A stretch of DNA of 64,000 nucleotides. Source: Yersinia mollaretii ATCC 43969 (GTDB lineage: Bacteria; Pseudomonadota; Gammaproteobacteria; Enterobacterales; Enterobacteriaceae). The translations under genes and the position numbers were made by a program. This document shows, piece after piece, positions 10,441-61,668 of the stretch (within the stretch, counting starts at the first letter, position 1; every line of letters begins with the position of its first letter). Location of the stretch: NCBI RefSeq assembly GCF_013282725.1, contig NZ_CP054043.1:4402001-4466000 (forward strand), in the 5' to 3' direction. Under the pieces are notes generated by a model, which made no database searches, was not told the DNA's origin, and worked only from the letters and a program-made list of their open reading frames with translations.

Positions 10441-10468
10441 AAATGCGCGGGAGAGTTACCGCGCATTT
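10441..10468. terminator. Bidirectional terminator between yegP and hipB
   Basis: A perfect 10-bp inverted repeat, AAATGCGCGG (10441-10450) and CCGCGCATTT (10459-10468), with an 8-nt loop. A T run follows on the minus strand (GCATTTTTATG), and the plus side has a weaker ATTTCATTTT. It can end both convergent transcripts. Its right arm touches the hipB stop codon. Confidence 0.85.
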
Positions 10469-32627: not shown

Positions 32628-33107
32628 CTAACGCCCCCTTAGCTCAGCTTGATCGGTTTCCACATCATAGGCCCCCTCAACACACAGATCGATAGGATGC
32701 GGGTCCCAATGAATCAGCCCCCTAATCTCAAACTGCACAATGCCATTTCTGGCATTGTGCTGCTGACTCACGACCAGAGATTCAGTCATCACCCGGGGTT
32801 CAAAACGAATGATAGCTTCACGAATAACTCGCTCAATGGTATTCCAATTATGGGGGGTCGAATGCCTCCCCACCAATGGCGCAATACCAAAGTTTAATAC
32901 TGATGTGGCGACCCATTTATGGCGCTGCTCATTAAGCCTATCGTCAATATTGGCATTATTTAATATCTCACCAATATTACGCTGCACCAGTTTTCGCATC
33001 ATACGTGAGTCATAAAAGAACTTATCATGAGGCTCTAACAGCTTTTTAGGCTCATCATCAAGTAAACGCTCTAATAATGCAGGCAAAAACTGTCGTTTCT
33101 TTTCCAT
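32628..33107 (-). CDS. tssE: TssE, T6SS baseplate gp25-like protein
   Basis: 159 residues of the gp25/lysozyme-like baseplate family. The family core is visible in MRKLVQRNIGEILNNAN (wedge-sheath contact), FGIAPLVGRH, and IREAIIRFEPRVM, the last being the conserved 'I-x3-I-x2-FEPR' element. It joins TssF, TssG and TssK in the baseplate wedge. The start overlaps the tagJ stop by one base (TAATG). Last gene of the minus-strand T6SS operon. Confidence 0.93.
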   Translation of the reverse strand: MEKKRQFLPALLERLLDDEPKKLLEPHDKFFYDSRMMRKLVQRNIGEILNNANIDDRLNEQRHKWVATSVLNFGIAPLVGRHSTPHNWNTIERVIREAIIRFEPRVMTESLVVSQQHNARNGIVQFEIRGLIHWDPHPIDLCVEGAYDVETDQAELRGR

Positions 33108-33913
33108 TAATTAACCTGTTCGTCAAACCTAAATTCTTCAACGTCAAATAACGCGTACTCATTTTGGTCGGTAATAAACATTTTCCGACCAGAGCCAATA
33201 TAAAGCGAATCTACCGGTTGGCTCCATTCTGTTTTAAGGCCGAGCTGAGTATCATTATCGGCGTCGGCTGCCAGTGGATAACGGGCTGGTACGTAGCCGT
33301 ACCAAATTTTATCGCTAATTGTCAGCTGTGCCGGTGCCCAGATCAGGTCGGTGATATTTTTCGGTTTGGAAACCGTCAATAACTGCACATCAGCAAACGG
33401 AACCCAGCGATAGCCTCCCGAGCTGATAAATTCACACACTGGCCCGATTCGCCCATCACTGTCAGCAATCCAGGAGAATCGCGCCGCAGAACTACTCTCC
33501 CCAGCACTTACCGGTGCTTGGGACAGTGCCTGCTCACGTAAATCTTCACTTTTCTGATAATCCCCCTCGTGCAACAGTTGGTTAGCTTGTTGCATCAATG
33601 TCACCCACTCAGGCAATGTGTTACCCAAGGTTCCGGGGGCGCGTTTCCCGGCTAATACGGCTTCCCGCAGCATCTCACCCAATACCAGATTTTTATAAAG
33701 CTCAGCCCGCTTGGCCATATCAGGTGCAACCTTGACCAAGGTTTCAAGCTGAAACAGCGCTTTTTGCCATAAACCTCCCAGACAATAGAGCTTAAATAAT
33801 AACTCTCGTGCATCGATATCGGTGGGTTTGGTTTTCAATGTTGAGATGGTTTCTGCTTGTATTTCGCTTAACGAACTGCTTTTCAATAATTCATTTAAAT
33901 TAGTGGTATTCAT
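33107..33913 (-). CDS. tagJ: TagJ (ImpE family), T6SS accessory protein
   Basis: 268 residues with the ImpE layout: a TPR-like helical N terminus (ETISTLKTKPTDIDARELLF, LYCLGGLWQKALFQLETL), then an SciE-type domain (SDGRIGPVCEFISSGGYRWV, ITDLIWAPAQL). In Pseudomonas TagJ binds TssB and the sheath and modulates ClpV action. It lies between tagK-like and tssE, with which it overlaps. Confidence 0.9.
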   Translation of the reverse strand: MNTTNLNELLKSSSLSEIQAETISTLKTKPTDIDARELLFKLYCLGGLWQKALFQLETLVKVAPDMAKRAELYKNLVLGEMLREAVLAGKRAPGTLGNTLPEWVTLMQQANQLLHEGDYQKSEDLREQALSQAPVSAGESSSAARFSWIADSDGRIGPVCEFISSGGYRWVPFADVQLLTVSKPKNITDLIWAPAQLTISDKIWYGYVPARYPLAADADNDTQLGLKTEWSQPVDSLYIGSGRKMFITDQNEYALFDVEEFRFDEQVN

Positions 33914-33938: not shown

Positions 33939-34781
33939 TTATAAATGACTGTCTAGCCCTAACTTATAGAGCTCCTGAAATACCAATTCAGGAACTCTAT
34001 TTTTCTCTTTTGTGATAATATGGTCCGGTGCCAGCACTTTTAACAAATCAACTTTCTCTTCGTTACAGGCGGTTTCCAGATAGTCGATAACACTTAATTC
34101 TTTGGTGACTTTTTCGATCAGTCCGCCGGAATCTAAAATACATTCAGTCAGCGTTTTATCCTTGACGCACTCTCTGATATTCTCCAAAAAACCGTCATTG
34201 GCAGACAATTTTGTCGCCTGCTGCTTATTTTTTTCTGAGAACTCCCGGCCTTGTTCACCCCACATAAGAAACCGCTTGTACTCCAGTTCCAAGCCTTTCA
34301 GAACATCCTGCCCCTGATGTTGGTAAGCTTGCACCTCATTTACGTCATCGAAATAGGAGATGTAGTAACCACCATGGGACAGAATATCTTCAATTTCTGG
34401 AAGATCAGTCGCATCGTAGACCGTCGGTTGTTCGAGCATCAGTAGATTGTCAGTAAAACTTTTACCCGCCGCTTGTCCTGATGCTTTTTTGGCCGTTATG
34501 ACAAAATGACCACACTTGATCTCTGCTCCAAATGACAAAGGGTGGTGCTCACCTGGGCTTAACTCTTTGCCATTGATCATGCAAATAAAATCATCGCAAT
34601 GATTAATCATCATTGGCCCAAGCTTATGCCAGTAAAACCACACTTCGTTCTGTCGGTCTCCCACAGAGTGGGGAGAGAACTCCCCTTTTTCCATGCTGAA
34701 ACAGATAGCATTTCTCTCTGTCACAGAGTCATTCAGTTGAAACTGTTGCGACATGCGTGGCCAAGTTAAGACTAATAACAT
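33939..34781 (-). CDS. tagK: TagK-like T6SS-associated protein
   Basis: 280 residues. The first 110 resemble an FHA-like beta domain (FYWHKLGPMMINHCDDFICM, INGKELSPGEHHPLSFGAEI), joined to a helical C-terminal part with the TagK-type pattern (FLMWGEQGREF, VIDYLETACNEEKVDLLKVL). No enzymatic motif is seen; the exact role is unknown. The start at 34781 lies 5 bp after the PAAR stop; an ATG at 34754 is the alternative. It might connect PAAR/VgrG cargo to the rest of the machine (inference). Confidence 0.75.
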   Translation of the reverse strand: MLLVLTWPRMSQQFQLNDSVTERNAICFSMEKGEFSPHSVGDRQNEVWFYWHKLGPMMINHCDDFICMINGKELSPGEHHPLSFGAEIKCGHFVITAKKASGQAAGKSFTDNLLMLEQPTVYDATDLPEIEDILSHGGYYISYFDDVNEVQAYQHQGQDVLKGLELEYKRFLMWGEQGREFSEKNKQQATKLSANDGFLENIRECVKDKTLTECILDSGGLIEKVTKELSVIDYLETACNEEKVDLLKVLAPDHIITKEKNRVPELVFQELYKLGLDSHL

Positions 34782-34786
34782 CGCTA

Positions 34787-35047
34787 TTATCCGCCGATAA
34801 GGACGTTAGGTGATCCACAAACAATGGAGGCACCATCTCCGGCTATATCGCCCAGGCGAGCGGCCGGAAGCCCATTAATAAATACGGTTCCGGAGCCTTT
34901 GACGATAATGGTCATGCCGACCAATATAGAGGTGGCCGTGCTTCCAGTCGCAAAAGCGGCGGGAATGCCATTAATAATCACATTAGGTGAACCGCTACAT
35001 ATCACCCCCAGACTGGTGGCATCCCCTATTCTTGCTGCACATACCAT
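34787..35047 (-). CDS. PAAR spike-tip protein
   Basis: 86-residue stand-alone PAAR protein: ARIGDATS at the N terminus, GSPNVIINGIPAAFATGS, GSGTVFINGLPAARLGD and a closing CGSPNVLIGG. It sharpens the VgrG spike and can carry effectors. There is no C-terminal toxin domain, so any effector must be separate. It follows vgrG by 114 bp in the same operon. Confidence 0.95.
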   Translation of the reverse strand: MVCAARIGDATSLGVICSGSPNVIINGIPAAFATGSTATSILVGMTIIVKGSGTVFINGLPAARLGDIAGDGASIVCGSPNVLIGG

Positions 35048-35161: not shown

Positions 35162-38100
35162 TCAAGGTGGCGGAGTCTGTTCATCCGTCGGCGTTTCGGT
35201 CGGCGTCTCGGTCGGCGTCTCGGTTGGCGTCTCCGTCGGCGTCTCGGTCGGCGTCTCGGTCGGCGTCTCCGTCGGCGTCTCGGTTGGCGTTTCGGTTGGC
35301 GTCTCCGTCGGCGTCTCGGTCGGCGTTTCCGTTGGCGTCTCCGTCGGCGTCTCGGTCGGCGTTTCCGTTGGCGTTTCCGTTGGCGTTTCCGTTGGCGTTT
35401 CCGTTGGCGTCTCGGTTGGCGTCTCCGTTGGCGTCTCGGTTGGCGTCTCCGTTGGCGTTTCCGTTGGCGTCTCGGTCGGCGTTTCCGTTGGCGTTTCCGT
35501 TGGCGTCTCGGTTGGCGTCTCCGTCGGCGTTTCGGTTGGCGTCTCCGTCGGCGTCTCGGTCGGCGTCTCGGTCGGCGTCTCGGTTGGCGTCTCGGTCGGC
35601 GTCTCCGTTGGCGTTTCCGTTGGCGTCTCCGTTGGCGTTTCCGTTGGCGTCTCGGTCGGCGTTTCCGTTGGCGTCTCGGTCGGCGTCTCGGTCGGCGTTT
35701 CCGTTGGCGTCTCGGTCGGCGTCTCGGTTGGCGTTTCCGTTGGCGTCTCGGTTGGCGTCTCGGTCGGCGTCTCGGTCGGCGTCTCGGTCGGCGTCTCGGT
35801 CGGCGTCTCGGTCGGCGTCTCGGTCGGCGTCTCGGTCGGCGTCTCGGTCGGCGTCTCGGTCGGCGTCTCGGTCGGCGTCTCGGTCGGCGTTTCCGTTGGC
35901 GTCTCGGTCGGCGTCTCCGTTGGCGTCTCGGTCGGCGTCTCCGTTGGCGTTTCCGTTGGCGTTTCGGTCGGTGTCTCCGTTGGCGTCTCGGTCGGTGTCT
36001 CGGTTGGCGTCTCGGTCGGTGTCTCGGTCGGCGTCTCGGTCGGTGTCTCGGTCGGTGTCTCCGTTGGCGTCTCGGTCGGCGTCTCCGTTGGCGTCTCGGT
36101 CGGCGTCTCCGTCGGTGTCTCCGTTGGCGTCTCGGTCGGTGTCTCCGTTGGCGTCTCGGTCGGTGTCTCGGTCGGTGTCTGAGTCGGCGTTACGGTCGGC
36201 GTTACGGTCGGAGTCTCCGTTGGTGTCTCCGTTGGTGTCTCCGTCGGCGTCTCCGTCGGCGTCTCCGTTGGTGTCTCCGTCGGCGTCTCCGTTGGTGTCT
36301 CCGTCGGCGTCTCCGTTGGTGTCTCCGTCGGCGTCTCCGTTGGTGTCTCCGTCGGCGTCTCTGTCGGCGTCTCCGTTGGCGGTTGGGTCGGCGTCTCGGT
36401 CGGCGGTTGGGTCGGCGGTAGCGTCGGTGGTTCCCACGTCGGTAAAGGAGGTAATGGCAATGGAAGCCCAATGATGCCAAACATCAACGATAGTCCGGCA
36501 AGGCTTGAAAGCGCAGCTAAACCACCACCCGCACCACCACCGCCGCCACCACCGCCGCCGCCGCCACAGCCACCTTCAGTGTTGAGGAGAATCTGCCCTC
36601 CCTGAATAACGACTTTACTTGAACCTATGATCTTGATAACGCTAGCACTGAGTACCAACTCCCCACCCGCACCAATCGCAATCGCACCACCCGCAACCAG
36701 TGAGGCGGCGCCCCCCGCAGCAACCTGATGAGCGCCACCGACGGAAAGGGCATTGTAGCCCCCGACATTCGTCAAGTTGGCCCCACCCACGTTGGTCGCA
36801 TTAAGACCCCCCACGTTGGTCCCATTAGCACCACCCACGGTGGTCATATTTGCAGCACCCACCGTGGTCGTATTGGCTAAACCCACTGTGGTTGAATTGG
36901 CCAAAGCCACACTTAATGAGTGGGTTGCTCCCACCACCACGTCACGCGCAGCCCCCACTTGCAATGAGGAGGTTGAAGCGATGTTTTTAACGGCAGCACC
37001 GAGAATTGTTGATGACGAGTTCGCGCCCACAATAATACTGCGGTTAGCACCGATAGTGAGGTCGGCATTGGCCCCGACAATTTGCGTCTCATCATTTTTC
37101 GTCAGACGCGCCATATTGCGCTCAGCCTGCTCCCAGTACTGCTCTTGGCCGGGTTTATCCTCAAAACGCACGCCGTTATAGTTGGTTAGCCCGCCACCAA
37201 TGGTGCGGCTGACCAAGCCACTTTGGGTGGCATTAGCCGGTAAATCCCAAGGTGGACGAGTGACGTTGTTGTAGAGACTACCGCTGACCAGCGGGCGATC
37301 TGGATCGCCGTTGATACAGTCAACCAGCACTTCCTGACCAATACGCGGAATATAAATCCCACCAAAACTGTTCCCGGCCCACGCCTGACTAACTCGCAGC
37401 CAGCACGAATCTGACTCGGTATTTTTGCCATAGCGGTCCCAGACAAAACGCACTTTTACCCGACCATATTCATCGGTCCAAACCTCTTCACCCGGCGGCC
37501 CCACTACGATGGCGTTCTGTGGCCCGCTAGTTTTTGGCTTGGGTGTGAGCTGCGGGTGTCGATAGATTTTGGTGGTGGGCTGAACCAGGAAGGTAGTCTC
37601 ATAGCGAAACTCATCCCCGTGGGATAGCTGTGCCACTTCGGATACGGACAAACGGCTGGAGATCACCATGTATTCGCGGTTAGCTTTATTAACCGGGAAG
37701 CCTTGCAGTTCAAAGTTAGCGCCACACACGATGCCGCGAACCTCACCGGAACCCTCGGCTCGAGAACCCAGTGCACCGCGCTCCTCAATACGTACCCGCG
37801 AGAGGTGTTCCCCAATGTCCGGCTGCTCATAATCCCCAGGCCAGTGATAGATCTCCAGCTCGTTAAAACTGGTTTTACGTGGCTTGCTGTCCATGGTCAA
37901 AATGTCAGCGCGGGACTTAGTAAAATCGTAGTCGTTGTAGACCCAGCGCCCGGTGGTCAGGGTTTCTTGAGTCTGGAATTGGGTGATGTACTCTTCCCCA
38001 GCCTTTGGCTCATCGGAGAGATACTCGATAATATGGTAGGCTTCACTGAAATAGCGCTTGTGAGCGCCGACATGATCCACCAGTATTAATTTTTGTTTAT

Positions 38101-38680
38101 GATCATCATGTTCGAAAAACCAGTAAATACCCCACTCCTCCATTAAACGCTGAAGGAAGTTAAAGTCGGTTTCACCGTATTGCACTTGGAAGTCGAGTAA
38201 CGGATAAGTCGTCGCCAGCCGTTTTTCAAACGGGAAGTTATAGTCGGCGAGCACTTCATCAATAATATCTACGACATTTTTTTTCTGAAAAATTTTAAAG
38301 TCAGAGGTTAAATTCGTCAGATAGAACCACGGTCTCAGAACAATTTCGAACATCGCCTGATTAGCGTCTCGGCCAATAAATCTCGCTTTCTCCACCAGCC
38401 CCGAAATTTCACGTGTGCCTTTGCCGACACCTTTCACATAATCAAGGCCATTACCATCCAGTTCCATTTCAATCGTCATCTCTTTACCAATTAAGGCTTT
38501 GAGATCGACATTGGAGGCAGTCTGCCAAGGAATGGATGGATTAGCCGGCGTTTTTGCCGTGATGGTATAGGAATACAAAGTCGAAAAGGCTTCCTCTCCT
38601 TCCAACTTTGACAGTACCAGCGCAGGCTCACCCAATAAATAGGGCATAGCCGGGCTGCTCAACTTTATTGTCCTTGACAT
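35162..38680 (-). CDS. vgrG: VgrG (TssI) with giant Pro-Thr-Glu-Thr tail
   Basis: T6SS spike of 1,172 residues. About 1-370 is the gp27-like part (GETDFNFLQRLMEEWGIYWF); about 383-470 is the gp5 OB-fold (GPPGEEVWTDEYGRVKVRFV, DPDRPLVSGSLYN). About 500-690 is the beta-helix needle with repeated 'N-x-T-x-VGG' units. An unusually long glycine run follows near 703-720, then a hydrophobic stretch to about 740. From about 753 to 1165 the chain is roughly 100 PTET units, ending DEQTPPP. Normal VgrG proteins end at the needle. The tail has no predicted enzyme fold. Confidence 0.95.
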   Translation of the reverse strand: MSRTIKLSSPAMPYLLGEPALVLSKLEGEEAFSTLYSYTITAKTPANPSIPWQTASNVDLKALIGKEMTIEMELDGNGLDYVKGVGKGTREISGLVEKARFIGRDANQAMFEIVLRPWFYLTNLTSDFKIFQKKNVVDIIDEVLADYNFPFEKRLATTYPLLDFQVQYGETDFNFLQRLMEEWGIYWFFEHDDHKQKLILVDHVGAHKRYFSEAYHIIEYLSDEPKAGEEYITQFQTQETLTTGRWVYNDYDFTKSRADILTMDSKPRKTSFNELEIYHWPGDYEQPDIGEHLSRVRIEERGALGSRAEGSGEVRGIVCGANFELQGFPVNKANREYMVISSRLSVSEVAQLSHGDEFRYETTFLVQPTTKIYRHPQLTPKPKTSGPQNAIVVGPPGEEVWTDEYGRVKVRFVWDRYGKNTESDSCWLRVSQAWAGNSFGGIYIPRIGQEVLVDCINGDPDRPLVSGSLYNNVTRPPWDLPANATQSGLVSRTIGGGLTNYNGVRFEDKPGQEQYWEQAERNMARLTKNDETQIVGANADLTIGANRSIIVGANSSSTILGAAVKNIASTSSLQVGAARDVVVGATHSLSVALANSTTVGLANTTTVGAANMTTVGGANGTNVGGLNATNVGGANLTNVGGYNALSVGGAHQVAAGGAASLVAGGAIAIGAGGELVLSASVIKIIGSSKVVIQGGQILLNTEGGCGGGGGGGGGGGAGGGLAALSSLAGLSLMFGIIGLPLPLPPLPTWEPPTLPPTQPPTETPTQPPTETPTETPTETPTETPTETPTETPTETPTETPTETPTETPTETPTETPTETPTETPTVTPTVTPTQTPTETPTETPTETPTETPTETPTETPTETPTETPTETPTETPTETPTETPTETPTETPTETPTETPTETPTETPTETPTETPTETPTETPTETPTETPTETPTETPTETPTETPTETPTETPTETPTETPTETPTETPTETPTETPTETPTETPTETPTETPTETPTETPTETPTETPTETPTETPTETPTETPTETPTETPTETPTETPTETPTETPTETPTETPTETPTETPTETPTETPTETPTETPTETPTETPTETPTETPTETPTETPTETPTETPTETPTETPTETPTETPTETPTETPTETPTETPTETPTETPTETPTETPTDEQTPPP
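35187..36418 (-). repeat. 12-bp minisatellite encoding PTET units
   Basis: About 100 tandem 12-bp units. On the plus strand each is a variant of GGCGTCTCGGTC or GGCGTTTCCGTT. Differences between units fall at third codon positions (Pro CCG/CCA, Thr ACC/ACG/ACA, Glu GAG/GAA). Only a few units near the N-terminal end change protein (PTVT, PTQT, PTQP). From 35754 to 35885 eleven units are identical, suggesting recent expansion or conversion. The size is a multiple of three, so copy changes keep the frame. Confidence 0.97.
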
Positions 38681-38940: not shown

Positions 38941-41900
38941 TCACCATGTTCTAAGCATGTCATCGCTAGCGGCACTCGGGCATTGGAAACCTTTAAGTAG
39001 ATCGCCAATACTCTCGTTGCCATAAGTTAAACCGGACACTTCCAGCTCAACGCGATCATCACCGATGGCATAGGTCAGAAGTTGTATACCGCTAGCGTCT
39101 TGTCTGACTTCATCAGCCTTATCAGCCCACTTCAGCAATGCCCAAGGGCCACGCAGAAGAATGTCTGGCATCGCCAATGCTTGCTGGTGCTGAGCGGTTA
39201 AACTCACCAAAGTCCCTTGGCGGACACCCGGCCATTTAAAGAAAGAGGGCGTCACTGGGCCATGAGAATAGCGCGCAATATTCCCATCAAAATTCATGAC
39301 TAATTGCGTTATTGAAGGGGCTAAATAACGCACGGATACCGAGAAGTCCAAGGCCACTTTTCGGCCTTCATTGGCATTAAACAGTGCATTTCTGATAACC
39401 GCAGCTTGTTCAAAGAACGCCAGACCTTCGCTACTTGCGCTGCCCTTATAGCGCCAAGGGGTCGCCGTGGTATCGACTTTGCTTTCCAGATTCTGCTTAA
39501 AGTAACTATCGACTGTGCCACCCGCACCGAAGAAGCGCTCAAAATCATTCAAACTGACCACTTTTTCGCTGTCAGCAAAGGGATAGCGCCCTTGTAGCGT
39601 GTTGCGACAAATCTCACCGACGCCCATATCAATGGCTTTCGAGGTGTGAGTAATCACTTTATTTTCAAATTTCTTTGATGAGCCGGTTAATAGCGGCCTA
39701 ATAATATTGCTGAACGGATCTGGCCACGTTTGTGACTCTATCGCGATGCGCTCCCCACCATTTGAGATCGGCGGAATATCGCCATATTCAAAGGCGCTGT
39801 TAAACACCACCAGACGGGTATATTGGTCATTTAACGCGCCGATAACCCGACTCATCTGGGTGCCCTGAATCACGGAAAGGTTGCTGTTGCTCCCCTCATC
39901 ATTCGCCTCACCAATGACAAAGGTTCGCAAGGTGTCAAAGCGCCTATCAACAAACTCCTGCACCAACTTGTTCTCACGAAATGCGATCTTTTCCTGCACT
40001 TTTTTAGCTTGGCTAATGATATTGCCCTGATTTCTTATCGTGATATCGTCAAGCAAGGGTTTCTCTTTTTCCTTCTCTATCAGGGTCGTCTCTTTCACTG
40101 CTTGTTTGGCTAAATTGAGTAAAGGTGAGTTTTCTGACACCAACGTTCTCAACAGCGCAATATCCAGAGACAGCCCTTCTGCATACTCTCCACTGTCAGC
40201 TTCGACAGGAATCAGGCGCACACTGGAGAGGAAGCGTTGCCAGTAATTTGTATACTCTTTCAAATAGACGGTTAGAACATCCTGCTGAAGCGCCAGTGGA
40301 TCAAATGAGGAAGAGAGCGGCTGGGCCATCACCCAGCGGTCCTCTTGCTGAAGTTGCATCAGCAGTGGCGTAAGCTTTTTTCTAACCACCTGATGGTAAC
40401 CGGCGTGGGTATACAACCCCGGAACCCCTTCATGCAGTAGCTCGTCGTCTGATAGGGTAAAAACCTGTGTTGCGTTTTCACCCACCATTCTGCGTAATGT
40501 GAGATTAGCCGGGGCTTCCGGCTGCAAACGAGATTGAACGCGGCTCCAGAGTCTGGCGGTGACCGTTTTCTCCGCCAGCATTGCCCGGGCCTGTTTGATC
40601 AGTTCGTTATCTGCCGGTTGCCCGTACTGTCGCCACTCTTTCTGAGTAAACAGCATGTTCAAATGAGAGGAAAAAATACCTTTTTCTTCATAGGGTTCGA
40701 TTTTCCCGCTTTTTTGCCAAGCTTGCGTCACATGGTCAATCACATAATTCCGATCGAAATGATCATCCCCGGTGAGCATCAAATAGAGCTTCAACGCGCT
40801 ATAGACCGCATCGTAATCCGCAGCATTCATCGCATTATTTAATGCCACTTCCGCCTCACGCTCGATCATCGGGAACAGATATTTTTGCAGGAAGAACTGA
40901 TACAGGCTGTTCGCCCCATGAGAGACGGTCCCGCCAGTGTATAGACCATAACGCCACTCAAGATCGGGGTTATTGGTATCCAGCGTGCCATAGTCGGGTA
41001 ACTGTTCAGTGGCGTTCAGTAATGCAGGTAACAGCTGCTCATTGGTGGTTTTAACATAGCGGCTAACCTGCCCTTCTAACTGCTGAAGCTTGGTGCCGAC
41101 CGCCTGCAAATAGCCCTCGTTATGCTGGAAACTGATTAAAAACGCCCAGACGAGCCAGACCGCCAACCCCATACAGGTAATGTGTCCTACCAGATTTTGG
41201 AGACGGTGTTTGGATTGCACCTTGAGGTTATAGCTCACCAAATCGCCATCTTTGGTGATCACGTCACGGAACAGTTGCTTAAGAAAATACTGTTTCCCAT
41301 ACGCCGCTTCACTGATCAGCTGGCCTTCATCATCACTTCGCTGAGAAAGAGAGGCCGGAGAGGTCGGTTTCTGATGGTCGATAACATTGCGCCACTTTTG
41401 AATTAGCGTGTTGTTATTTAACAGGCCAATATTTGCTGGTTGGCAACTGCTGACAAAATAGATCCCTCGCAATGTGGTATGGAATTTTGTTTCATCAAAA
41501 CGTGAGGCGAAGAAAACATTCTGTAAGATTTCAGTGACCCGCTGGGACAACATTCTGAAATCCTGCGGCAGCGCATACATGCCTTTGCGATCCGCCACTG
41601 AATACTCTTCCTGCTGACGGACAGGCATATTGCTACTGATACGACTCTCAAGTAGCGCCAGTTCACGACTAATCAGCTCCTCAAGCCCGATATCCGCCTG
41701 CCCCTTCTCCTCGTTATAAGGTAAAGTCACACCCCAGATTTGATCGCGATCTTCGGCGGTTAAATTGCGGAAATACTCATCAAAACCAGATAATTGGTCC
41801 AGTTTGGTGATTACCACATACACTGGAAAACGGATACCCAGCTCACCACGCACATCATCTAAACGTGCGCGCAGTGTGGCTGACAGGTTCAGCAACTCAA

Positions 41901-42774
41901 CTTTACTTTTACCCAGAATATCAGTGACCGAAATCGCAACAATGACCCCATTCACCGCGTCAACAGGGCGATACTTTTTAAGCGCCTTTAAAATGCCATT
42001 CCATTCAAGCTGATTCTCTTTACCATCATCAATGTATTTACCGGCGGTATCTAAAAACAGAGCATCGTTGGCGAATAAACATTCACAATGCTGAGTCGGC
42101 AAATTATCTTTGCCAATCCGATTCAACTGTTCAGGTAAAGGAAAGTCTTGTCCTGATGAGAGCAGTAGAGCCGTTTTTCCGGCACTTTTGGTGCCCACCA
42201 CCATGAACCAAGGCAGTTCGGTACGCCAACGGCCAGAGACAAAAAAACGTTTCCAGAGTGGAATACCACTGTGAATGCGGCGCACATAATTGATGCCATT
42301 GCGAATCATCGCATTGATTTCGGAAAAGTCAGGCCCGAGTTCAGGCTTGCCTTTCTTCGGGTTAATAAAGTTATCCAGCAACGCAGGATTTAGCGCTAAA
42401 GCCCGCATAAAACGCCACACCCCATAAAGCAGAGTGATAAAGACGATCACGGCGATAATTGCGCCACGGCGCAGCGGATCTTCTAGTGGGTGGCTCTCCC
42501 CGATTAAGATAAAGGGAGTGATAACCCATATAGCGGCACAGGCGGCCACCGCCAAGATGACAAACCGAGGCACGTTGAACCAAAAACCCAATAACAGGGC
42601 GAGAGTTAGCAGTAAGAAAATAACTCTGGGTTCATAACCTTCGAGAGGTCGCGCCTCGCCATATCCGAGGAAAGGCCCCAAAAACCATATTGCGACAGCC
42701 AGCAAGGTAAAGCAGCCCACCAGCAATACGCGTTTCATGACCCAGCCATAAAGCAATCGATTCAAATAAGACAT
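38941..42774 (-). CDS. tssM: TssM (IcmF-like) membrane complex protein
   Basis: Inner-membrane protein of 1,277 residues. Two N-terminal helices (VLLVGCFTLLAVAIWFLGP; RVIFLLLTLALLLGFW) and a further pair are followed by a cytoplasmic NTPase-like domain with Walker A GTKSAGKTALL near residue 190. Another membrane helix (LVGHITCMGLAVWLVWAFLI) leads to a large periplasmic domain that contacts TssJ. Together with TssL and TssJ it forms the trans-envelope channel. The ATG at 42774 lies 8 bp after the tssL stop; a TTG at 42786 is less likely. Confidence 0.95.
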   Translation of the reverse strand: MSYLNRLLYGWVMKRVLLVGCFTLLAVAIWFLGPFLGYGEARPLEGYEPRVIFLLLTLALLLGFWFNVPRFVILAVAACAAIWVITPFILIGESHPLEDPLRRGAIIAVIVFITLLYGVWRFMRALALNPALLDNFINPKKGKPELGPDFSEINAMIRNGINYVRRIHSGIPLWKRFFVSGRWRTELPWFMVVGTKSAGKTALLLSSGQDFPLPEQLNRIGKDNLPTQHCECLFANDALFLDTAGKYIDDGKENQLEWNGILKALKKYRPVDAVNGVIVAISVTDILGKSKVELLNLSATLRARLDDVRGELGIRFPVYVVITKLDQLSGFDEYFRNLTAEDRDQIWGVTLPYNEEKGQADIGLEELISRELALLESRISSNMPVRQQEEYSVADRKGMYALPQDFRMLSQRVTEILQNVFFASRFDETKFHTTLRGIYFVSSCQPANIGLLNNNTLIQKWRNVIDHQKPTSPASLSQRSDDEGQLISEAAYGKQYFLKQLFRDVITKDGDLVSYNLKVQSKHRLQNLVGHITCMGLAVWLVWAFLISFQHNEGYLQAVGTKLQQLEGQVSRYVKTTNEQLLPALLNATEQLPDYGTLDTNNPDLEWRYGLYTGGTVSHGANSLYQFFLQKYLFPMIEREAEVALNNAMNAADYDAVYSALKLYLMLTGDDHFDRNYVIDHVTQAWQKSGKIEPYEEKGIFSSHLNMLFTQKEWRQYGQPADNELIKQARAMLAEKTVTARLWSRVQSRLQPEAPANLTLRRMVGENATQVFTLSDDELLHEGVPGLYTHAGYHQVVRKKLTPLLMQLQQEDRWVMAQPLSSSFDPLALQQDVLTVYLKEYTNYWQRFLSSVRLIPVEADSGEYAEGLSLDIALLRTLVSENSPLLNLAKQAVKETTLIEKEKEKPLLDDITIRNQGNIISQAKKVQEKIAFRENKLVQEFVDRRFDTLRTFVIGEANDEGSNSNLSVIQGTQMSRVIGALNDQYTRLVVFNSAFEYGDIPPISNGGERIAIESQTWPDPFSNIIRPLLTGSSKKFENKVITHTSKAIDMGVGEICRNTLQGRYPFADSEKVVSLNDFERFFGAGGTVDSYFKQNLESKVDTTATPWRYKGSASSEGLAFFEQAAVIRNALFNANEGRKVALDFSVSVRYLAPSITQLVMNFDGNIARYSHGPVTPSFFKWPGVRQGTLVSLTAQHQQALAMPDILLRGPWALLKWADKADEVRQDASGIQLLTYAIGDDRVELEVSGLTYGNESIGDLLKGFQCPSAASDDMLRTW

Positions 42775-42782
42775 TCTATATC

Positions 42783-44159
42783 TCAATAATTAACAAAGAT
42801 TTCTACACGGCGATTTTGCGAACGTCCTGCTGCATCGTCATTGCGACTCACGGGTTGTGTGTCACCTTTACCCTCGAACCGAATTTTGCCGGTCGGAATG
42901 CCTGCTTTTTCCATAAAGCGTGCAACGTTGGCGGCACGTTTCTCAGAAAGCACCTGATTATTCGGGTAGCCGGGCTTATTAATCGGCATCGAGTCGGTGT
43001 GTCCAACAATCAGAACCGCCCCTTTCACGCGATGAACTTCCTGAGCGACGCGCTCAATAACATTCACTATTTCTGGTCGCACCTTATCCGAACCGACTTG
43101 GAACATGGTGTCGCCTCTGAAGATGACTTTGCTGCGGCTGGTTGTCTCATCGACACTCACGAGTTTCTTCGCGATCTCATCTTTTAACAAAACAGTCAGA
43201 CGCAACTTCTGCACGGCGACTGGCGGTGTGGCTACCGGGTGTTGCAATATCACCATTCTTTTCAGCAAGTCGCTTTCGGGTACGGAGAGAAAATATTTGC
43301 AACCGATAAAGGTGGAGGCAATTAAGAAACCGCCTAGCAGCATCGACACGCGAACCGGAACAAAAATCCCACGCCGTCTTCTCAATTGATGAGTGACCAA
43401 TCCATGCGGAGAGAGTGCCGTAGGCACCGTGTCTCTGGTGCTTTGCAGCAGGGTTAACAACCCTTGCCGAATTTTGGTCAGTTGCCGGTCGCCATCTTCG
43501 ATAATGCTGTAACGGCCTTCGAAACCTAACCCTAAAATCCTCAGTAACACTTCTAAACAATCCGCATACTCATGCGGACTCATTGAGAGGCGGCCCACTA
43601 ACAGGAAAAATTTATTCCCGCCGTCGTTGTCACCTTCGAAATGGTTCAGTAGGTTACTTTGCGACCAGCCAGACATCACGCCCCACGGTAGGGTGTGAGC
43701 TGCTTCATCTAACGCGGTACACAAGCAGTAGCGGACGATAGCCATTTTCTTCCATGAGATATCCGCTTCATCGCACACCACGCTAAACAGGGTGATTTCA
43801 TTTTTCAGGCTCTCTTTGAGTATCTGAACCTGCGAAGCATCCGCTATCTTTTCCGGCATTTCGCTTAAGGCGCGTAATAGCGGCTGTGACGCCTCTAACA
43901 GTGGCGTCGGTGAAGCGACCGCTTTCGCCACGCGCTGCTGCACACTTTCGCCTCGAAGCTGAGCGGTGTCATAGGGTTGAAAACCTGACGAGCGGGGAGC
44001 TTCACTGCCAAAGACGGTGCTATGCGGTGTTTTATCCGAATAGGTACTCTGCTCATCAAGCAAGAAGTGGCCTAGCGCCTGCGGATTGGTATCCGCATCT
44101 CTGCTTGGGTCAAAGGGGGGCATCGTGACTCCCCCGTTCAATTCACTGCTATCACTCAT
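42783..44159 (-). CDS. tssL: TssL with peptidoglycan-binding OmpA domain
   Basis: 458 residues: a cytoplasmic DotU-type domain (about 90-250, with CLCTALDEAAHTLPWG), a single membrane helix (about 258-285) and a C-terminal OmpA-like domain (GHTDSMPINKPGYPNNQVLS and KGDTQPVSRNDDAAGRSQNR, about 390-458) that should hold peptidoglycan. This 'specialised' TssL anchors the membrane complex directly to the wall without a separate TagL/TagP protein. The start overlaps the tssK stop (ATGA). Confidence 0.94.
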   Translation of the reverse strand: MSDSSELNGGVTMPPFDPSRDADTNPQALGHFLLDEQSTYSDKTPHSTVFGSEAPRSSGFQPYDTAQLRGESVQQRVAKAVASPTPLLEASQPLLRALSEMPEKIADASQVQILKESLKNEITLFSVVCDEADISWKKMAIVRYCLCTALDEAAHTLPWGVMSGWSQSNLLNHFEGDNDGGNKFFLLVGRLSMSPHEYADCLEVLLRILGLGFEGRYSIIEDGDRQLTKIRQGLLTLLQSTRDTVPTALSPHGLVTHQLRRRRGIFVPVRVSMLLGGFLIASTFIGCKYFLSVPESDLLKRMVILQHPVATPPVAVQKLRLTVLLKDEIAKKLVSVDETTSRSKVIFRGDTMFQVGSDKVRPEIVNVIERVAQEVHRVKGAVLIVGHTDSMPINKPGYPNNQVLSEKRAANVARFMEKAGIPTGKIRFEGKGDTQPVSRNDDAAGRSQNRRVEIFVNY

Positions 44160-49090: not shown

Positions 49091-49693
49091 CTACTTATAA
49101 TTCAATTCAATACCGGCAGTCGTTCTGACCTGTCCAGGGGTTACCGCATTAGTACCTTTCGCATAATAACCCGCTAGAAAATAGTGAGTGACATCCTCAC
49201 CCGAGCTGGAAATAACATATTCCTGAACACTATTTTCATCGCCAACGAACATTTGTTGCCCTGCAACTTTACTTAATCTTATTTGCGCATTTTTGCTGAA
49301 ATCATCAGCCACTTCATTTTGTAAGTTTCCGGTTGTCCCATCCGGTTGCGTTCCCCCCGCACCAATAAAACCTAATGACACTGTTCTATTGACCGGACAT
49401 GACTTCAACGCAATTTGGAATTGCTGTTTACCTGCTTCTTCTCCGTCAGTTTTTAATTGTTGTGTCGACAAGGTCGGTAATAAAACAGACTCTGACGATG
49501 AACCATCATTAATACTAACTTCGCAGGTATCTTCCAAATACTCACCCGTAAATGAAACCTGAACTTTACAATCAGCCGCACCCGCACATGCACTGGCTGC
49601 CTGAGCAGACTGGCGGAAGATAAAAGCGGCCACCATTAACAGCAAAAGCAAGATAAACTTCAGGAGAACACTCCTTTTCAGCCACGAAGACAT
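49091..49693 (-). CDS. Fimbrial minor subunit
   Basis: 200 residues with a hydrophobic signal (LKFILLLLLMVAAFIFRQSA, cut near AQA) and pilin pattern: cysteine near the start of the mature chain, LPTLSTQQLKTDGEEAGKQQ, second cysteine in LKSCPVNRT and a C-terminal AGIELNYK beta strand for the usher/chaperone. Shares the LPTLSTQ motif with the major pilin of this operon. The start has a near-perfect GGAGGTGAT and lies inside the end of the usher gene (16-bp overlap). Confidence 0.88.
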   Translation of the reverse strand: MSSWLKRSVLLKFILLLLLMVAAFIFRQSAQAASACAGAADCKVQVSFTGEYLEDTCEVSINDGSSSESVLLPTLSTQQLKTDGEEAGKQQFQIALKSCPVNRTVSLGFIGAGGTQPDGTTGNLQNEVADDFSKNAQIRLSKVAGQQMFVGDENSVQEYVISSSGEDVTHYFLAGYYAKGTNAVTPGQVRTTAGIELNYK

Positions 49694-52347
49694 ATCACCT
49701 CCAACTGTTTTATTTGCGTACTTTTTGTCTTCGCCGCACTCTTATCTTCCGCTGGCGGTGGAATACGGCACTGCCCTTTACCACCATCCAGAGTGACATG
49801 CAGTGGTTGTGAACCTGAAGCCCAGCCACGAATAAAGGCCATCCCACCCTGCCCGACAATGCCAAGACTCACCCCCTCGGCATCCAGCAGCTCTGTACCA
49901 ATTGGGATAAACTCTCTATTTTCATCCCTGACGATCAGCATCAGTGGTTCGCCGATAATGGTCTTCATCTTGACTGGGATCATCGCCCCGCTTCTCGGCA
50001 CTACTGTCTTCTGGTTCTCTAGCACATCAACCGAATCAGGTAAGTTGTCGTAATCAATCGCAACGCTGTTTTCTCGGTACGGTGTCAGCGATGGCATAAT
50101 GGCGTATCCGTGACTATCAATTTTCGCACCACGACCATTAAACAACTTAGCCCCTTCAGCCCCCTCAGCTTGGATGATGGCAAAAGGCGCATCTCCTAGC
50201 CGTGGCCCGACGGTGACCCCGCCCTGATGTGCCACCAGACTGCCGTTTGCCGAAACTGAAAGCTGTTTCGACGCCCGATTGTTGGCTGACGCCGTCATAC
50301 CGAATTGACCCACTGGTGTCTGGTAATTCAGATTACCTGTCACCGATTTATCCGCAGAATTCCCACTACGGTTGCTATATGCGGTCCCGACACCATAAGT
50401 CAGTTCACTCTGATCCCCTCTGCTGCCATTCGCATTCATCTGAACCAGCGAGTTGCCTGCATCATCATGGCTAACCATGGAGTAGAGCGAGCTAAACAGC
50501 GGCCGATTTGCCCCACTGCCCCCCAGTGGAATGCTGATGGCGAGCATGTAACTATTCTCATAATCTCTATTGTTGTTGCTGGTGTTACTGTCACTGCTAT
50601 TACTGCTGCGCATCGCCGTCACGGCATAAGAGAAATAGCGCAATGAGTGATTAAACGTCAGTGCATATTGCTTTGACGTGTCCTGATTTCCCCAGTAGCT
50701 ATAGAAACTGCTATTCAGGTTAACCGACATGGTGTCCGTGACACGCTGAGAAACACTCAGCGACAGACGATTGCGCGTCCGTAAGTCAATAATCTCACCG
50801 CCATTTCTTGCGCCATAGTGATCAAGACTGGCTTCTCTAAAGCTATAAAAACCCGTGGATGAGTATCGATACGCCGCTAATGTCAGGTTGGTATCGGTTT
50901 CTCCAACGTACTTGCTGTAATCAATTTTGTAACTGTTCCCGGATGAGCGACGATCATCCGCCAATTCACTTCTCGCATGGGTAACGTCCATCGAGATACC
51001 CCCGATTGGCGTATTAAATGCGTTGCCTATCCCAATCGAACTGTAATTCTCTGATAACTGAGTTCCGCCATACAGCGTATAAGAGTTACCCAAACCATAG
51101 TGATACGCACCTTGCACGATACTCGGATGCGCATTTATCGTACTGTCATTCAGTTGCCCCGCCGCCACATTGAACTGTGAGACACCTTGGTAAAGCAGCA
51201 TCGGCGGTGCCGAGAACGGTATCCTTTGAATACGGGTTCTACCGTCAGACTCGGTGATCGTCATTTGCAGATCCCCGCCGTAAGCCATCGTACCGATATC
51301 GGCCAGTTCAAAAGCCCCCGGCGTCACCACCGTCTCATACACCGTTTGCCCACGCTGAGTCACGGTGACTCTGGCGTTGGTTTCCGCCATACCGCGAATA
51401 ATCGGGGAGTAATTTCGGATCCCTTCCGCTAACATACGGTTGTCAGACGCCAGTTGCACACCGCGCAGCCCGTAGCTATCGAATAAGTTCCCGTTAGTAT
51501 CACTTTCACCCAGCGTTAACTGACTTTTCAACGACGTAATATCTGTTGCCGCATAACCATATAAATTTTGGGTATGCATTCCACCCGTGTTAGTCCAATT
51601 ACTATTGAGTCGTTTTCTTAAACGCCACTCGCCAATATTCACTCCGGTAATCAAACCAATATTGCCGTTATACGAATTTGAGGCTGCATCATTATTATTT
51701 TGGCCATTAAAAACACTGTAAATATTGCTGTTATAATCTAAAAAACCCACTGGCCCGCCGGAGTCCCACAAACTGGGGTCAATATACCCACGGGGATGCT
51801 TCACTAAATTAAACTGTGGCACCGTCATTGAAAGTTCAAAATCACCAGAGTTATAGTGAGTACTGCTGTCTTTAATTAAATCCTTTAGCAGGTAGCACTG
51901 ATCCTTTGCCGCTACCTTGACGTTCTCAGGTATATGAGTCGAACCGTTAAGCTCAATTCTGATGCCCAATGCATCAAGCTGATCCAGCCTGAAACAAGGT
52001 TCTGCAGTTGATTCGCCGGTAACTGATTTAAAGCGAATCGTCTGCCTACCCATCGTTTTGCCATTAACGATAACTAAAACATCATAGCTACCCGGAGAAA
52101 CAGGGTTCTCATTCGTAAATCGCGAAACATCAATGGCTGAACCATGAATAAAATCAGGGTTAAATTCAACTGATGTCACTTCAGTATTATCTCTCTTATT
52201 CACAACCGGAGCTGCTGTTGCATTTTTATTGATGATCAGCGCCGAACCGATAATTGTAATCGTGAAACCAAATGAAGCCTGACAGAGTAAATTAACCAAT
52301 CGTTCGATTTTATTATCTATGTAGCATGTTATATATGGATAGTTCAC
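49678..52347 (-). CDS. Fimbrial outer-membrane usher
   Basis: 889 residues. The N-terminal domain (VEFNPDFIHGSAIDVSRFTN) and signal-like segment precede a 24-strand pore (LTLGESDTNGNLFDSYGLRG; GLGNSYTLYGGTQLSENYSS), with a plug and C-terminal domains ending in a conserved cysteine (LEVICLRG). It assembles the fibre made of the pilins encoded beside it. GTG 52347 follows GGGAGCTTTTAATC; upstream TTG at 52386 is less likely. It overlaps the minor subunit gene. Confidence 0.92.
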   Translation of the reverse strand: MNYPYITCYIDNKIERLVNLLCQASFGFTITIIGSALIINKNATAAPVVNKRDNTEVTSVEFNPDFIHGSAIDVSRFTNENPVSPGSYDVLVIVNGKTMGRQTIRFKSVTGESTAEPCFRLDQLDALGIRIELNGSTHIPENVKVAAKDQCYLLKDLIKDSSTHYNSGDFELSMTVPQFNLVKHPRGYIDPSLWDSGGPVGFLDYNSNIYSVFNGQNNNDAASNSYNGNIGLITGVNIGEWRLRKRLNSNWTNTGGMHTQNLYGYAATDITSLKSQLTLGESDTNGNLFDSYGLRGVQLASDNRMLAEGIRNYSPIIRGMAETNARVTVTQRGQTVYETVVTPGAFELADIGTMAYGGDLQMTITESDGRTRIQRIPFSAPPMLLYQGVSQFNVAAGQLNDSTINAHPSIVQGAYHYGLGNSYTLYGGTQLSENYSSIGIGNAFNTPIGGISMDVTHARSELADDRRSSGNSYKIDYSKYVGETDTNLTLAAYRYSSTGFYSFREASLDHYGARNGGEIIDLRTRNRLSLSVSQRVTDTMSVNLNSSFYSYWGNQDTSKQYALTFNHSLRYFSYAVTAMRSSNSSDSNTSNNNRDYENSYMLAISIPLGGSGANRPLFSSLYSMVSHDDAGNSLVQMNANGSRGDQSELTYGVGTAYSNRSGNSADKSVTGNLNYQTPVGQFGMTASANNRASKQLSVSANGSLVAHQGGVTVGPRLGDAPFAIIQAEGAEGAKLFNGRGAKIDSHGYAIMPSLTPYRENSVAIDYDNLPDSVDVLENQKTVVPRSGAMIPVKMKTIIGEPLMLIVRDENREFIPIGTELLDAEGVSLGIVGQGGMAFIRGWASGSQPLHVTLDGGKGQCRIPPPAEDKSAAKTKSTQIKQLEVICLRG

Positions 52348-52428
52348 GATTAAAAGCTCCCTTTTATACCGTCCTTTTGATGACAAGCGTGTCGAATTTC
52401 CTGTCCGAAACTATATCCTTGCCAATAT

Positions 52429-53175
52429 TTACTTCTTAACTAGAGTCCCTTTCCCTTGTGTAAACGATATGCTCTCTTCGATTGGAGCACCGTAATCGTT
52501 TAGTATTTTATAAACCACCGCTGAAATACCCGATATTTTGTTTTCAGGATAAAAAGTCAGAGTTGAAAAAGGAGCCAACATTTCCGTTTTTAGCTCAACT
52601 TTTTTACTACCGGCAGTCGCAATACCACTATCAAAGGAGAAATAATAAGGTGTCGGGTTAGTGACTTTCACGCCCTGACCTTTTTGGCTATCACTCGCCA
52701 GCGCCCATTGCAGCTTCTCGCTTTGTTCAGTCCCACTGCTCTTTAAAGCAATTGGGCGATAGAAGATTTTAATTCGGGTACGAAAAGCCAGTTCAAGTTT
52801 ATTCTTATCACTGCCGCTCTTTTCTACTGTCGGTATTTCTAGCATGTTAAACCAGAATACGGACTCTTTATCCTGCGGGAGCGCCATGCCGTTATAAATC
52901 ATACGCACACTTTGCCCTTTACCTGCCTCAACACGAAATACAGGAGGCGTCACCACAAAGGGAATCGTCAAGCTATTAATATTGGCATCGCTCTTTCCAT
53001 CATCGACCCAAATTTGGACTAAAGCGGGATCAGTGCCTCTATTATTCGTCCGTACACTGACCTCTTTTTTAGCTGCGGGAAATATTACCCGTGTGCCACT
53101 GATCGTCATAGATGCATAGGCAGGGATACTGCCAGCAATGAGCATCAACCCTAAAATACATTTTTTATAAAACAT
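52429..53175 (-). CDS. PapD-like fimbrial chaperone
   Basis: Periplasmic chaperone of 248 residues. Signal peptide to about ASIPAYA (residue 21). Conserved positions: TRVIFPAAKKEVSVRTNN, PPVFRVEAGKGQSVRMIYNG, then IPTV and RIKIFYRP in the second strand region. The loop between F1 and G1 is short, indicating the FGS group. Located 82 bp upstream of the usher. Confidence 0.92.
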   Translation of the reverse strand: MFYKKCILGLMLIAGSIPAYASMTISGTRVIFPAAKKEVSVRTNNRGTDPALVQIWVDDGKSDANINSLTIPFVVTPPVFRVEAGKGQSVRMIYNGMALPQDKESVFWFNMLEIPTVEKSGSDKNKLELAFRTRIKIFYRPIALKSSGTEQSEKLQWALASDSQKGQGVKVTNPTPYYFSFDSGIATAGSKKVELKTEMLAPFSTLTFYPENKISGISAVVYKILNDYGAPIEESISFTQGKGTLVKK

Positions 53176-53330: not shown

Positions 53331-53879
53331 TTAGTTATAAGCCAGTACGTATTGAACTTTTGCAGTCACAGCACCTGGCGTGGTTGCTTCAGTAGCATAG
53401 TAACCACCCGCGTAGGACAGGGTAGCAGTACCCGGATCGGTGCCAGCACCTGGGACAACATCAAACTTAGCGCCCGTATCACCGACACGAATCTGTTTAC
53501 CATCGGCGATATCGTACAAACGCACTTCAACTTCACCCGCAGGGTCAGTTTTCTCTGAGTTTGTCAGGTTACCAGTCACTGGGTTAGCGCCAGTGCTGTT
53601 GATAGCCTCAAAATGCGCAGCAACTTTAAGGATCTCTTTCGGGCAGTCAATAACATTAATAAGGAAACTGGTTGAACCCGCTTCTTGACCCGCCTTATCC
53701 AGATTCTGGGTTGAGAGCGTTGGCAGTGTGACAATAACGTCTTTGCTACCCGGTTCAACTTTACAGGTTTCGCTGATCAGTTTGCCGTTGAAGGTCACTG
53801 TACCATCAGTCCCGGCAAGAGCAGCGCCTGAAGCTACAGACAGTGCCAGTGCACATACCGCTAGGTTTACTTTACGCAT
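53331..53879 (-). CDS. Major fimbrial subunit
   Basis: 182 residues with a signal peptide cut near ASGAALA (residue 23). The mature pilin has GTVTFNGKLISETCKV, LPTLSTQNLDKAGQEAGS, a second cysteine in INVIDCPKE and a C-terminal AKVQYVLAYN strand. First gene of the minus-strand fimbrial operon pilin-chaperone-usher-minor subunit. ATG 53879 lies at proper distance from AAGGA; the ATG at 53888 is too close. Confidence 0.92.
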   Translation of the reverse strand: MRKVNLAVCALALSVASGAALAGTDGTVTFNGKLISETCKVEPGSKDVIVTLPTLSTQNLDKAGQEAGSTSFLINVIDCPKEILKVAAHFEAINSTGANPVTGNLTNSEKTDPAGEVEVRLYDIADGKQIRVGDTGAKFDVVPGAGTDPGTATLSYAGGYYATEATTPGAVTAKVQYVLAYN

Positions 53880-54065
53880 AACTTTCATCCTTTTAGTTTA
53901 CTTTCCAAAAATATTATTGATTCCATAAAACACGTACATAGTTAACACCTGCCTAAGCAGATATACCCTATTCTTTTTGCCTTTAGTTTTGATAAGAAAC
54001 AGCAAGTCCTTTTGAGATAAAATTTATAATCAGCATTAATTAAAATGAATATTCGTTGTCACTCA

Positions 54066-60349: not shown

Positions 60350-60426
60350 TCCATACCGTCACGCCCGGATGTCCGGGGGTAAAAACCAGACCTCGACGTC
60401 CACCCATGGCGTTAAAAGGAAAAAAC

Positions 60427-61668
60427 ATGAGTGTACAGAGTATTGCGGAAAGCACTGGCTACTATCACCGCCTAATGCAACCTATTCCGGGTGACCACCC
60501 TTGCGGCATAAGTCTGGAATATGATTCAGCATTTCTTTTGTTGCAGACAAAATTACAGCCCAAGCTCACCGCTGAATATGGCACTTTTGTCGAAGTCGCA
60601 GAGCCGACTAACTGGATAGAAACCGAGCGAAAATGCCTTGAACTGCTGGGTAAAGCCCGGGATGTGCGGCTAATTATTATTTTGATGCGCTGTCGGATGT
60701 GCCAAATCGGCGTCAGTGCGGTGCAAGAGGGTCTTGAGGCTTTACTCTGGTGCCTAAGTGCCTGGCCTGATGGTCTGCACCCTCAACTCTTCGATGAAGG
60801 GGAGTTTGAACCCTTTATGCGCGCCAATGCCTTCGCCGAATTAGACGACAGCGAGGGCTTTATTGCTGATCTTCGCAACCTCATGTTACCAAAAGCGGCA
60901 GGTATGCAGATTTCGCTCAAAGAGTTTGAAAAAGCGCATTCGTTCCCCCGCGAAGAGGGGGCATTGGAAGAAGCCACACTGGAAGGGATTAAGCAGGAGT
61001 GGCTGGTCCGTTCTGATAGCGTCATCATCTCATTGCAGCAAGCCTATACATTACTGTTGGAATTAGCCTCGCGGCTCGGCGACTCCCTCGGCGATGTCGC
61101 GCCTGACTTTGTCAAATTGACCTCGCTGTTATGCCATTTTGGTCAGGCCGATATTGCACCGATTGTGGCCCATGAGGCACATGAATATAGTCCTACGTCG
61201 GAATATAGTCCTACGTCGAAACATAGCCCTGCGTCAGAATACAGTGCTGCGCCGATAGAAAACGAGCCACATCCTAGCGCCGTTGAGCTGCCGCCGATGG
61301 AAGTTGCGGCAGAGGCAATACCGGTCGCAGTCGCACCCATCGGAACAGTACAGACCGGAGTCGTTCAGACCAACGTCGCACCAACAGAAGTGATGCGAGT
61401 AGAAGCCCCTACCCTCGCTAATCAGCCACCAATGCAACTTTCAGCTATGCCAGTAGAAGCACCAGCGCTGCCCAAAGGGATACAAAACCGCGCGGACGCC
61501 CTATCCCGACTTATTGAGGTACGTCAGTGGTTTACCACAACTGAACCCAGCAGCCCAGTGATTGCTCTCTTGTCCTTTTCAGAACAGACGATTGGCAAAA
61601 GCTTCGGCGAACTACTTCAGATTATTCCTCAGGAACTGATTTCTAAACTCGATGTATTACAGGAGTAG
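60427..61668 (+). CDS. tssA: TssA, T6SS assembly cap protein
   Basis: 413 residues with an ImpA_N domain (about 12-130, PIPGDHPCGISLEYDSAFLL) and a conserved C-terminal segment (about 355-413, NRADALSRLIEVRQWF and EPSSPVIALLSFSEQTIGKS). Between them lies a Pro/Ala/Thr-rich linker from about 250 that begins with four 6-residue repeats (EYSPTS, EYSPTS, KHSPAS, EYSAAP) coded by 18-bp units at 61183-61254. TssA primes and caps the growing sheath. The start follows AAAAGGAAAAAAC. Confidence 0.93.
   Translation: MSVQSIAESTGYYHRLMQPIPGDHPCGISLEYDSAFLLLQTKLQPKLTAEYGTFVEVAEPTNWIETERKCLELLGKARDVRLIIILMRCRMCQIGVSAVQEGLEALLWCLSAWPDGLHPQLFDEGEFEPFMRANAFAELDDSEGFIADLRNLMLPKAAGMQISLKEFEKAHSFPREEGALEEATLEGIKQEWLVRSDSVIISLQQAYTLLLELASRLGDSLGDVAPDFVKLTSLLCHFGQADIAPIVAHEAHEYSPTSEYSPTSKHSPASEYSAAPIENEPHPSAVELPPMEVAAEAIPVAVAPIGTVQTGVVQTNVAPTEVMRVEAPTLANQPPMQLSAMPVEAPALPKGIQNRADALSRLIEVRQWFTTTEPSSPVIALLSFSEQTIGKSFGELLQIIPQELISKLDVLQE
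61183..61254 (+). repeat. 18-bp tandem repeat in tssA
   Basis: Four consecutive 18-bp units; the first two are identical, the third and fourth diverged. In frame within the TssA linker. Confidence 0.95.

Follow-up and report, generated by a model that had tools for sequence, protein, structure and literature searches.

The spike of the type VI secretion system (T6SS) is a trimer of VgrG (TssI), the C terminus of which lies at the PAAR end, ahead of the tube, and so-called evolved VgrG proteins bear a C-terminal effector domain. In TonB, an unrelated protein, a Pro-rich, extended, charged spacer spans the periplasm between two domains. In the available part of its report, Klebsiella pneumoniae VgrG4 is said to have a proline-rich region after the modelled needle and PAAR site (PMC7108748), and the available part of a study of Periscope proteins deals with tandem-repeat length variation by means of long reads (PMC8201768). 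Here, we analyse a window of 64,000 nucleotides from Yersinia mollaretii ATCC 43969 (contig NZ_CP054043.1, positions 4,402,001 to 4,466,000), in which vgrG encodes a spike protein that ends in a long array of Pro-Thr-Glu-Thr (PTET) units. Judged by comparison of sequences, the tail appears to be a genuine, retained portion of VgrG because many relatives carry different repeats in the same place. We give roughly even weight to its being the C-terminal arm of one T6SS lineage's spike, a disordered, inert tether that would hold an end peptide for partner docking.

The vgrG open reading frame (ORF; 35162-38680, minus strand, as are all parts of it below) starts with ATG and encodes 1,172 residues. 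The core, residues 1–700 (36581..38680), consists of a gpD hub (29–347), an OB domain (403–470), and a gp5-like trimer needle (487–598), after which a needle-like repetitive part continues to about residue 700. The protein matches TIGR03361 with 512 bits against an NCBIfam cut-off of 186, and the Pfam matches PF05954 (3.1e-84), PF22178 (1e-27), and PF04717 (1.2e-12) are confined to residues 29–598; hub, OB, and needle are thus all present, and T6SS genes including PAAR surround the gene. No Pfam or NCBIfam match was found after residue 598. The core is followed by a neck at residues 701–739 (36464..36580), in which TEGGCG opens a hinge (701–720) with Cys705 preceding a Gly run (706–720, one Ala inside), and the hydrophobic stretch LAALSSLAGLSLMFGIIGL occupies residues 721–739 (19-residue Kyte-Doolittle mean of 2.02). 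A Pro/Leu-rich junction, residues 740–755 (36416..36463), has a similar motif in many orthologues and leads into the arm, residues 756–1165 (35186..36415), which is delimited by unit reading, tandem repeats, and coding pattern. The end peptide DEQTPPP, residues 1166–1172 (35165..35185), closes the protein, whose C terminus reads TDEQTPPP. A preliminary description of this DNA had placed a tail of roughly 420 residues (35162..36420) after the spike, a glycine run, and a hydrophobic stretch; both the order and the extent agree with an arm of about 418 residues.

The protein shares its hub, OB, and needle domains and its T6SS neighbours with other VgrG/TssI spikes, from which it differs by the neck and the low-complexity arm (family tails reach 638 residues) with no further domain found. 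As in evolved VgrG, there is an extension at the needle tip, but here it is made of neck and repeats and has no domain match after residue 598. An effector domain of the evolved type was rejected for the tail on this ground and because residues 756–1165 are repeats; a domain foreign to both libraries could be present. The likeness to a TonB-type spacer lies in the Pro-rich, extended, charged character, whereas the protein and its location differ. K. pneumoniae VgrG4 also has a proline-rich region past the needle; however, more protein follows that region, and no long array is described in the available part of the report (PMC7108748). Likewise, the Periscope proteins vary in tandem-repeat length, but as far as the available part of the source goes their repeats are folded domains displayed at the cell surface (PMC8201768), whereas the VgrG arm is a low-complexity sequence on a spike; its four-residue unit and the lack of a domain in the array set it apart from a folded-domain array that projects a binding domain.

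Read in fours from residue 756, the array comprises 104 units, of which 97 are PTET, two PTQP, two PTVT, and one each PTQT, PTDE, and QTPP. The earlier count of about 100 units is borne out, while the term nearly pure holds for the 97 exact units and has to be relaxed for the other seven. Tandem Repeats Finder detected the array at periods of 24, 36, and 60 bp, with a score of about 1,500, and the same 12-mer recurs without a break for at most 11 units. A degenerate coding pattern for TETPTETP matched the genome (4.6 Mb, a single contig) 94 times, each time inside this array, and the reversed control pattern had no match in the genome. When codon variants in a 99-unit segment were compared with the commonest codon, seven types were synonymous and two nonsynonymous, against an expectation of 71% nonsynonymous (binomial p = 0.003 on types); the corresponding variant cells were 127 and 3 of 130, which are not independent because units copy one another. 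The synonymous excess in this array argues that selection acts on the protein.

Relatives were found by scanning the named genomes with the VgrG core alone, so that the resulting 71 loci (L numbers) were not selected for an arm. Their arms follow a similar Gly-rich/hydrophobic neck at the same position and are built from different low-complexity units: TPEPTD or TPEPTE in Yersinia relatives, TTPEP in Morganella, PT in Izhakiella and Erwinia, PTPTESPT in Enterobacteriaceae RIT714, PPPSET or PPPSEE in Burkholderia, and PDET in Paraburkholderia. Even Yersinia relatives with 79-87% core identity carry differing units. The closest named protein among the 120 matches listed is a partial Y. mollaretii VgrG with 99% identity over 61% of the query.

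Although the units differ, the composition obeys a rule. Of the six reading frames, that of vgrG itself has the highest content of Pro, Thr, Ser, Glu, and Asp in 62 of 63 arms, the sole exception being an N-filled, out-of-frame arm (74 rows were examined and 11 dropped for a tail too short or cut), and the median Pro fraction is 0.32 in frame versus 0.012 in the remaining frames. The acidic fraction of these 63 arms spans 0 to 0.46, and the Thr fraction spans 0.01 to 0.48 in 43 compared arms (26 + 17 rows, hand-listed); L076 has an arm free of Thr. Basic and aromatic residues are few, the basic ones reaching 10% in L066. What is kept is Pro plus small polar or acidic residues, with acid and Thr each optional. 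The long acidic, Thr-rich arm noted earlier after the spike is thus present here, but acidity (0–46%) and Thr (1–48%) are not kept in the family. The 46 closed tails are 48 to 638 residues long (median of 128.5; eight out-of-frame, N-filled, broken, or orphan rows omitted). Units have been swapped freely while composition and frame are mostly kept, which fits a spacer.

Neutral slippage, by which a dispensable C terminus tolerates repeat growth, would account for the rapid shift of arm length and unit among close species, for the out-of-frame arms of L009 and L037, and for nonsynonymous variants that are not rare across all arrays. Over 47 arrays, 225 variant types are synonymous and 197 nonsynonymous, again against 71% nonsynonymous expected, and 92 of the 197 nonsynonymous types sit in L009, L035, and L037, arrays with out-of-frame stretches. 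Neutrality is at odds with the own frame being richest in 62 of 63 arms, with the synonymous excess, and with the presence of arms in two orders, and we regard it as unlikely. As separate observations, L035 (Yersinia G011) has three short arm stretches in another frame before the usual frame resumes, which is either real or a sequencing error, and in L009/L114 (Yersinia G007) the frame is lost towards the end of the array, so that the protein as read is without the usual end peptide.

The repeat number in the window was taken from one assembly, which leaves room for an assembly artefact. Long arms of varied units nevertheless occur in independent records, for example the complete plasmid record Burkholderia ambifaria pBMC401, L035, and L104. 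A contig end is reached in 20 of the 71 named loci, and 17 of these ends fall inside the tail, which implies that the region is hard to assemble and argues against assembly as the source of the array; the word partial also stands in the names of 20 of the 120 database relatives listed. The concern raised in the preliminary description about an artefact is mostly answered by these arms in independent genomes and by contigs that tend to stop within the arm. Its suggestion of a length ruler is contradicted by TssM, which has 1,281, about 1,281, and about 1,284 residues in three Yersinia with tails of 472, 222, and 105 residues. In the 26 TssM/tail pairs that remained after filtering by length, identity, and tail, the two lengths show no relation (Spearman -0.19, p = 0.36), and the ruler was rejected. 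An artefact or a ruler has in our view a close to negligible chance of being the explanation.

Arms are spread across a lineage. In a FastTree phylogeny of 143 cores, 90 rows are called armed, in two groups with armless rows around them. The enterobacterial side, which also holds one Neisseriaceae row, has 57 armed rows of 65, and a single Burkholderiales clade has 33 of 40. An arm was called at a Pro fraction of at least 0.17, with eight rows set as unknown and L009, L035, and P0001-P0049 left out; this threshold calls L071, L081, P0076, and P0104 armless despite their low-complexity tails. The label requires 12 changes on the tree, and one or several origins both fit, given the tendency of FastTree to group long branches and the use of midpoint rooting. 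An armed VgrG orthologue is present in 8 of 25 Yersinia genomes. The other VgrG-type ORFs of Yersinia (24 loci, 22 readable) include 15 closed ones, none with more than 12% Pro over the final 60 residues. In Escherichia coli, none of 5,426 genomes matches the core at 80% coverage, and 2,921 have shorter matches of roughly 70% to other VgrG genes, as identified from the best 15 records.

Under the tether reading, a VgrG trimer would bear one arm per subunit, three in all, anchored next to the PAAR tip through the Gly hinge and hydrophobic neck. The preliminary description supposed that the tail must fit inside the sheath, which is not quite the problem for a C terminus ahead of the tube. Each arm would be a disordered, proline-stiffened, chemically inert tether, with a sequence free to change provided that it stayed Pro-rich, soluble, and non-basic, and repeat slippage would continually renew it. 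By calculation, an arm of 427 residues would measure about 130 nm fully stretched, and as a coil its radius of gyration would be about 6 nm. The arm would hold the short end peptide at a distance from the spike and let it dock a partner before or during firing; cargo, a loading factor, and the membrane complex are candidates, and such docking might affect killing. The cargo-binding arm suggested in the preliminary description could thus form part of this reading.

The end peptides, which were grouped by hand after the ends had been viewed, appear to be kept in at least some clades. QTPPP closes the arms of the window VgrG, L035, L039, and L040, as well as the contig-edge fragment L113, and in the first four the last six codons show 10 synonymous and 3 nonsynonymous pairwise differences. 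No QTPPP-like end was seen in L115 or L116, and the G007 arm finishes in another frame. In an Enterobacter-type clade, EP terminates all eight closed arms, with 63 synonymous versus 44 nonsynonymous pairwise differences. Other short peptides also follow arms, such as EAIFR in P0029 and P0033.

Several observations weigh against a tether with a docking peptide. In the last six codons, nonsynonymous differences outnumber synonymous ones in Morganella (12:0), Burkholderiales A (45:29), and Paraburkholderia B (43:14), which makes the end-peptide step weak in those three groups. The end peptides vary among clades, their partner is hypothetical, and the edge of the array, being unrepeated, may seem conserved for that reason alone. 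The synonymous excess of 225:197 over all arrays is weaker than that of the window, with neither cells nor pairs independent. Moreover, some orthologue tails have just 48-60 residues, six rows of the Burkholderiales clade are called armless, and the disorder of the arm is putative.

The arms could also act as entropic bristles that bind no partner and prevent the hydrophobic neck and the tip from sticking or leaving solution in the cytoplasm. This would account for the tolerance of sequence and length and for the low content of basic and aromatic residues. The neck has a Kyte-Doolittle mean at or above a threshold of 1.6 in 40 of 67 tails, and L099, which is without a TssM or PAAR match, has no Pro-rich arm and a weak neck of 0.45. 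On the other hand, the Burkholderia arms of L084, L087, L088, and L104 are long despite weakly hydrophobic necks (0.56-0.84), some rows with a neck have tails of just 48-60 residues, and bristles leave the kept end peptides unexplained. We hold this reading as a tentative second possibility.

The genes that follow vgrG on the same strand encode a PAAR tip protein of 86 residues, in which the PAAR motif alone was found (34787..35047; PF05488), TagK (33939..34781), ImpE/TagJ (33107..33913; PF07024), and gp25-like TssE (32628..33107; PF04965), and the next gene upstream is tssM (38941..42786, minus; PF14331, PF06761, PF06744). Pfam identified TssM, TssL, TssK, TssJ, Hcp, TssC, TssB, PAAR, ImpE, and TssE in the window, and we take an 889-residue ClpB-type ATPase to be ClpV by its context. 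PAAR follows VgrG in 49 of the 51 loci with a right flank of at least 1,000 bases, the exceptions being L082 and L099, and 29 of these 51 loci have a TagK match, with ImpE in 26 and TssE in 29 of them. A TssM match is present at 68 of the 71 loci, and at 42 of these it lies over 600 bases away from the VgrG match. On the B. ambifaria plasmid, two genes lie between TssM and VgrG, and the VgrG, with PPPPSSE units, is followed by PAAR and then an RHS protein. An ORF of 1,137-1,212 residues follows PAAR in six of seven Burkholderiales loci (L081, L085, L088, L089, L095, and L106; not L104); these ORFs look Rhs-like, and the B. ambifaria plasmid annotation has RHS at the same place. TagK was rejected as a partner common to all arms, since these six loci have the Rhs-like ORF after PAAR.

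TagK bears on a further proposal, that the arm is a threonine platform read by the FHA-fold N terminus of TagK. FHA folds read phospho-threonine through a conserved Arg. By profile matches and predicted structure, TagK has an FHA fold at about residues 1-101 (match to TIFA, E = 0.003) and a TagK domain at 158-280, its second half being poorly modelled (predicted local distance difference test, pLDDT, mostly <60). In the FHA part of 23 aligned TagKs (from 30 sequences, the window's and 29 others), no column has Arg in half or more. The Y. mollaretii genome has no match to PF00069 (Hanks-type kinase), and on these two grounds a phospho-platform was rejected. TagK occurs in exactly the eight Yersinia genomes with an armed VgrG, but such co-occurrence is weak because the cluster is inherited together, and the Thr contrast is confounded with clade; a search of the wider class found TagK in one of 274 genomes, the own genome only, and hence offers no outside test. 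L047 seemingly lacks the FHA part, yet has a tail of 320 residues. We consider the platform highly doubtful. Short TagKs of 189 and 184 residues (L040 7638-8204 and L047 8509-9060; start codons guessed by script) seem to be without the FHA part and keep the TagK domain. In a related proposal, which we deem quite improbable, the arms would be multivalent docking lattices, where the divergent FHA domain of TagK binds unmodified Thr-Pro repeats and repeat number sets the TagK/cargo load. The accompanying steps, by which slippage would tune firing between strains and the Burkholderiales arm would hold the Rhs-like protein instead, seem just as improbable.

A glycosylated, mucin-like coat, also proposed earlier, would suit an arm rich in Ser/Thr with Pro spacing in a genome that encodes a PglL_A-type protein. 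A PglL-type ligase is periplasmic, however, and would have no access to the cytoplasmic spike until firing. Among the Yersinia genomes, the PglL_A domain is found in six of the eight with an armed VgrG, the other two having no match, and in 14 of the 17 without one; there is no association across the 25 genomes, and the coat, being unsupported, was rejected as most improbable. The PglL_A-type protein itself (protein or O-antigen ligase-like) is encoded at G000:C1:2185575-2185652, and the domain occurs in 20 of 25 Yersinia genomes.

Other features of the window were recorded as well. Within the T6SS locus, tssB and the ClpV-like gene are separated by fimbrial pilin, usher, and chaperone genes identified by Pfam (49091-53175), with a further ORF at 53331-53888. 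The ORF at 60406-61668, presumably TssA, contains an 18-bp repeat encoding EYSPTS-like units (61183-61245). A 464-residue ORF (10806-12200, minus), which we take from its sequence to be HipA-like, has a 9-bp repeat (11446-11507) that gives about seven consecutive NTI units; it adjoins an ORF at 10468-10821 that is presumably HipB-like.

We found no description of repeat arms of VgrG in the literature searched, which lay mostly outside subscription papers and so leaves their absence from print unproven; contig breaks in the arm and partial relatives may partly explain a lack of published accounts. To our knowledge, current spike models include no tip arms. A lineage of T6SS spikes appears to bear long, probably disordered arms at the tip, and their fast-changing sequence under a composition rule would make them a good case of function without sequence conservation.
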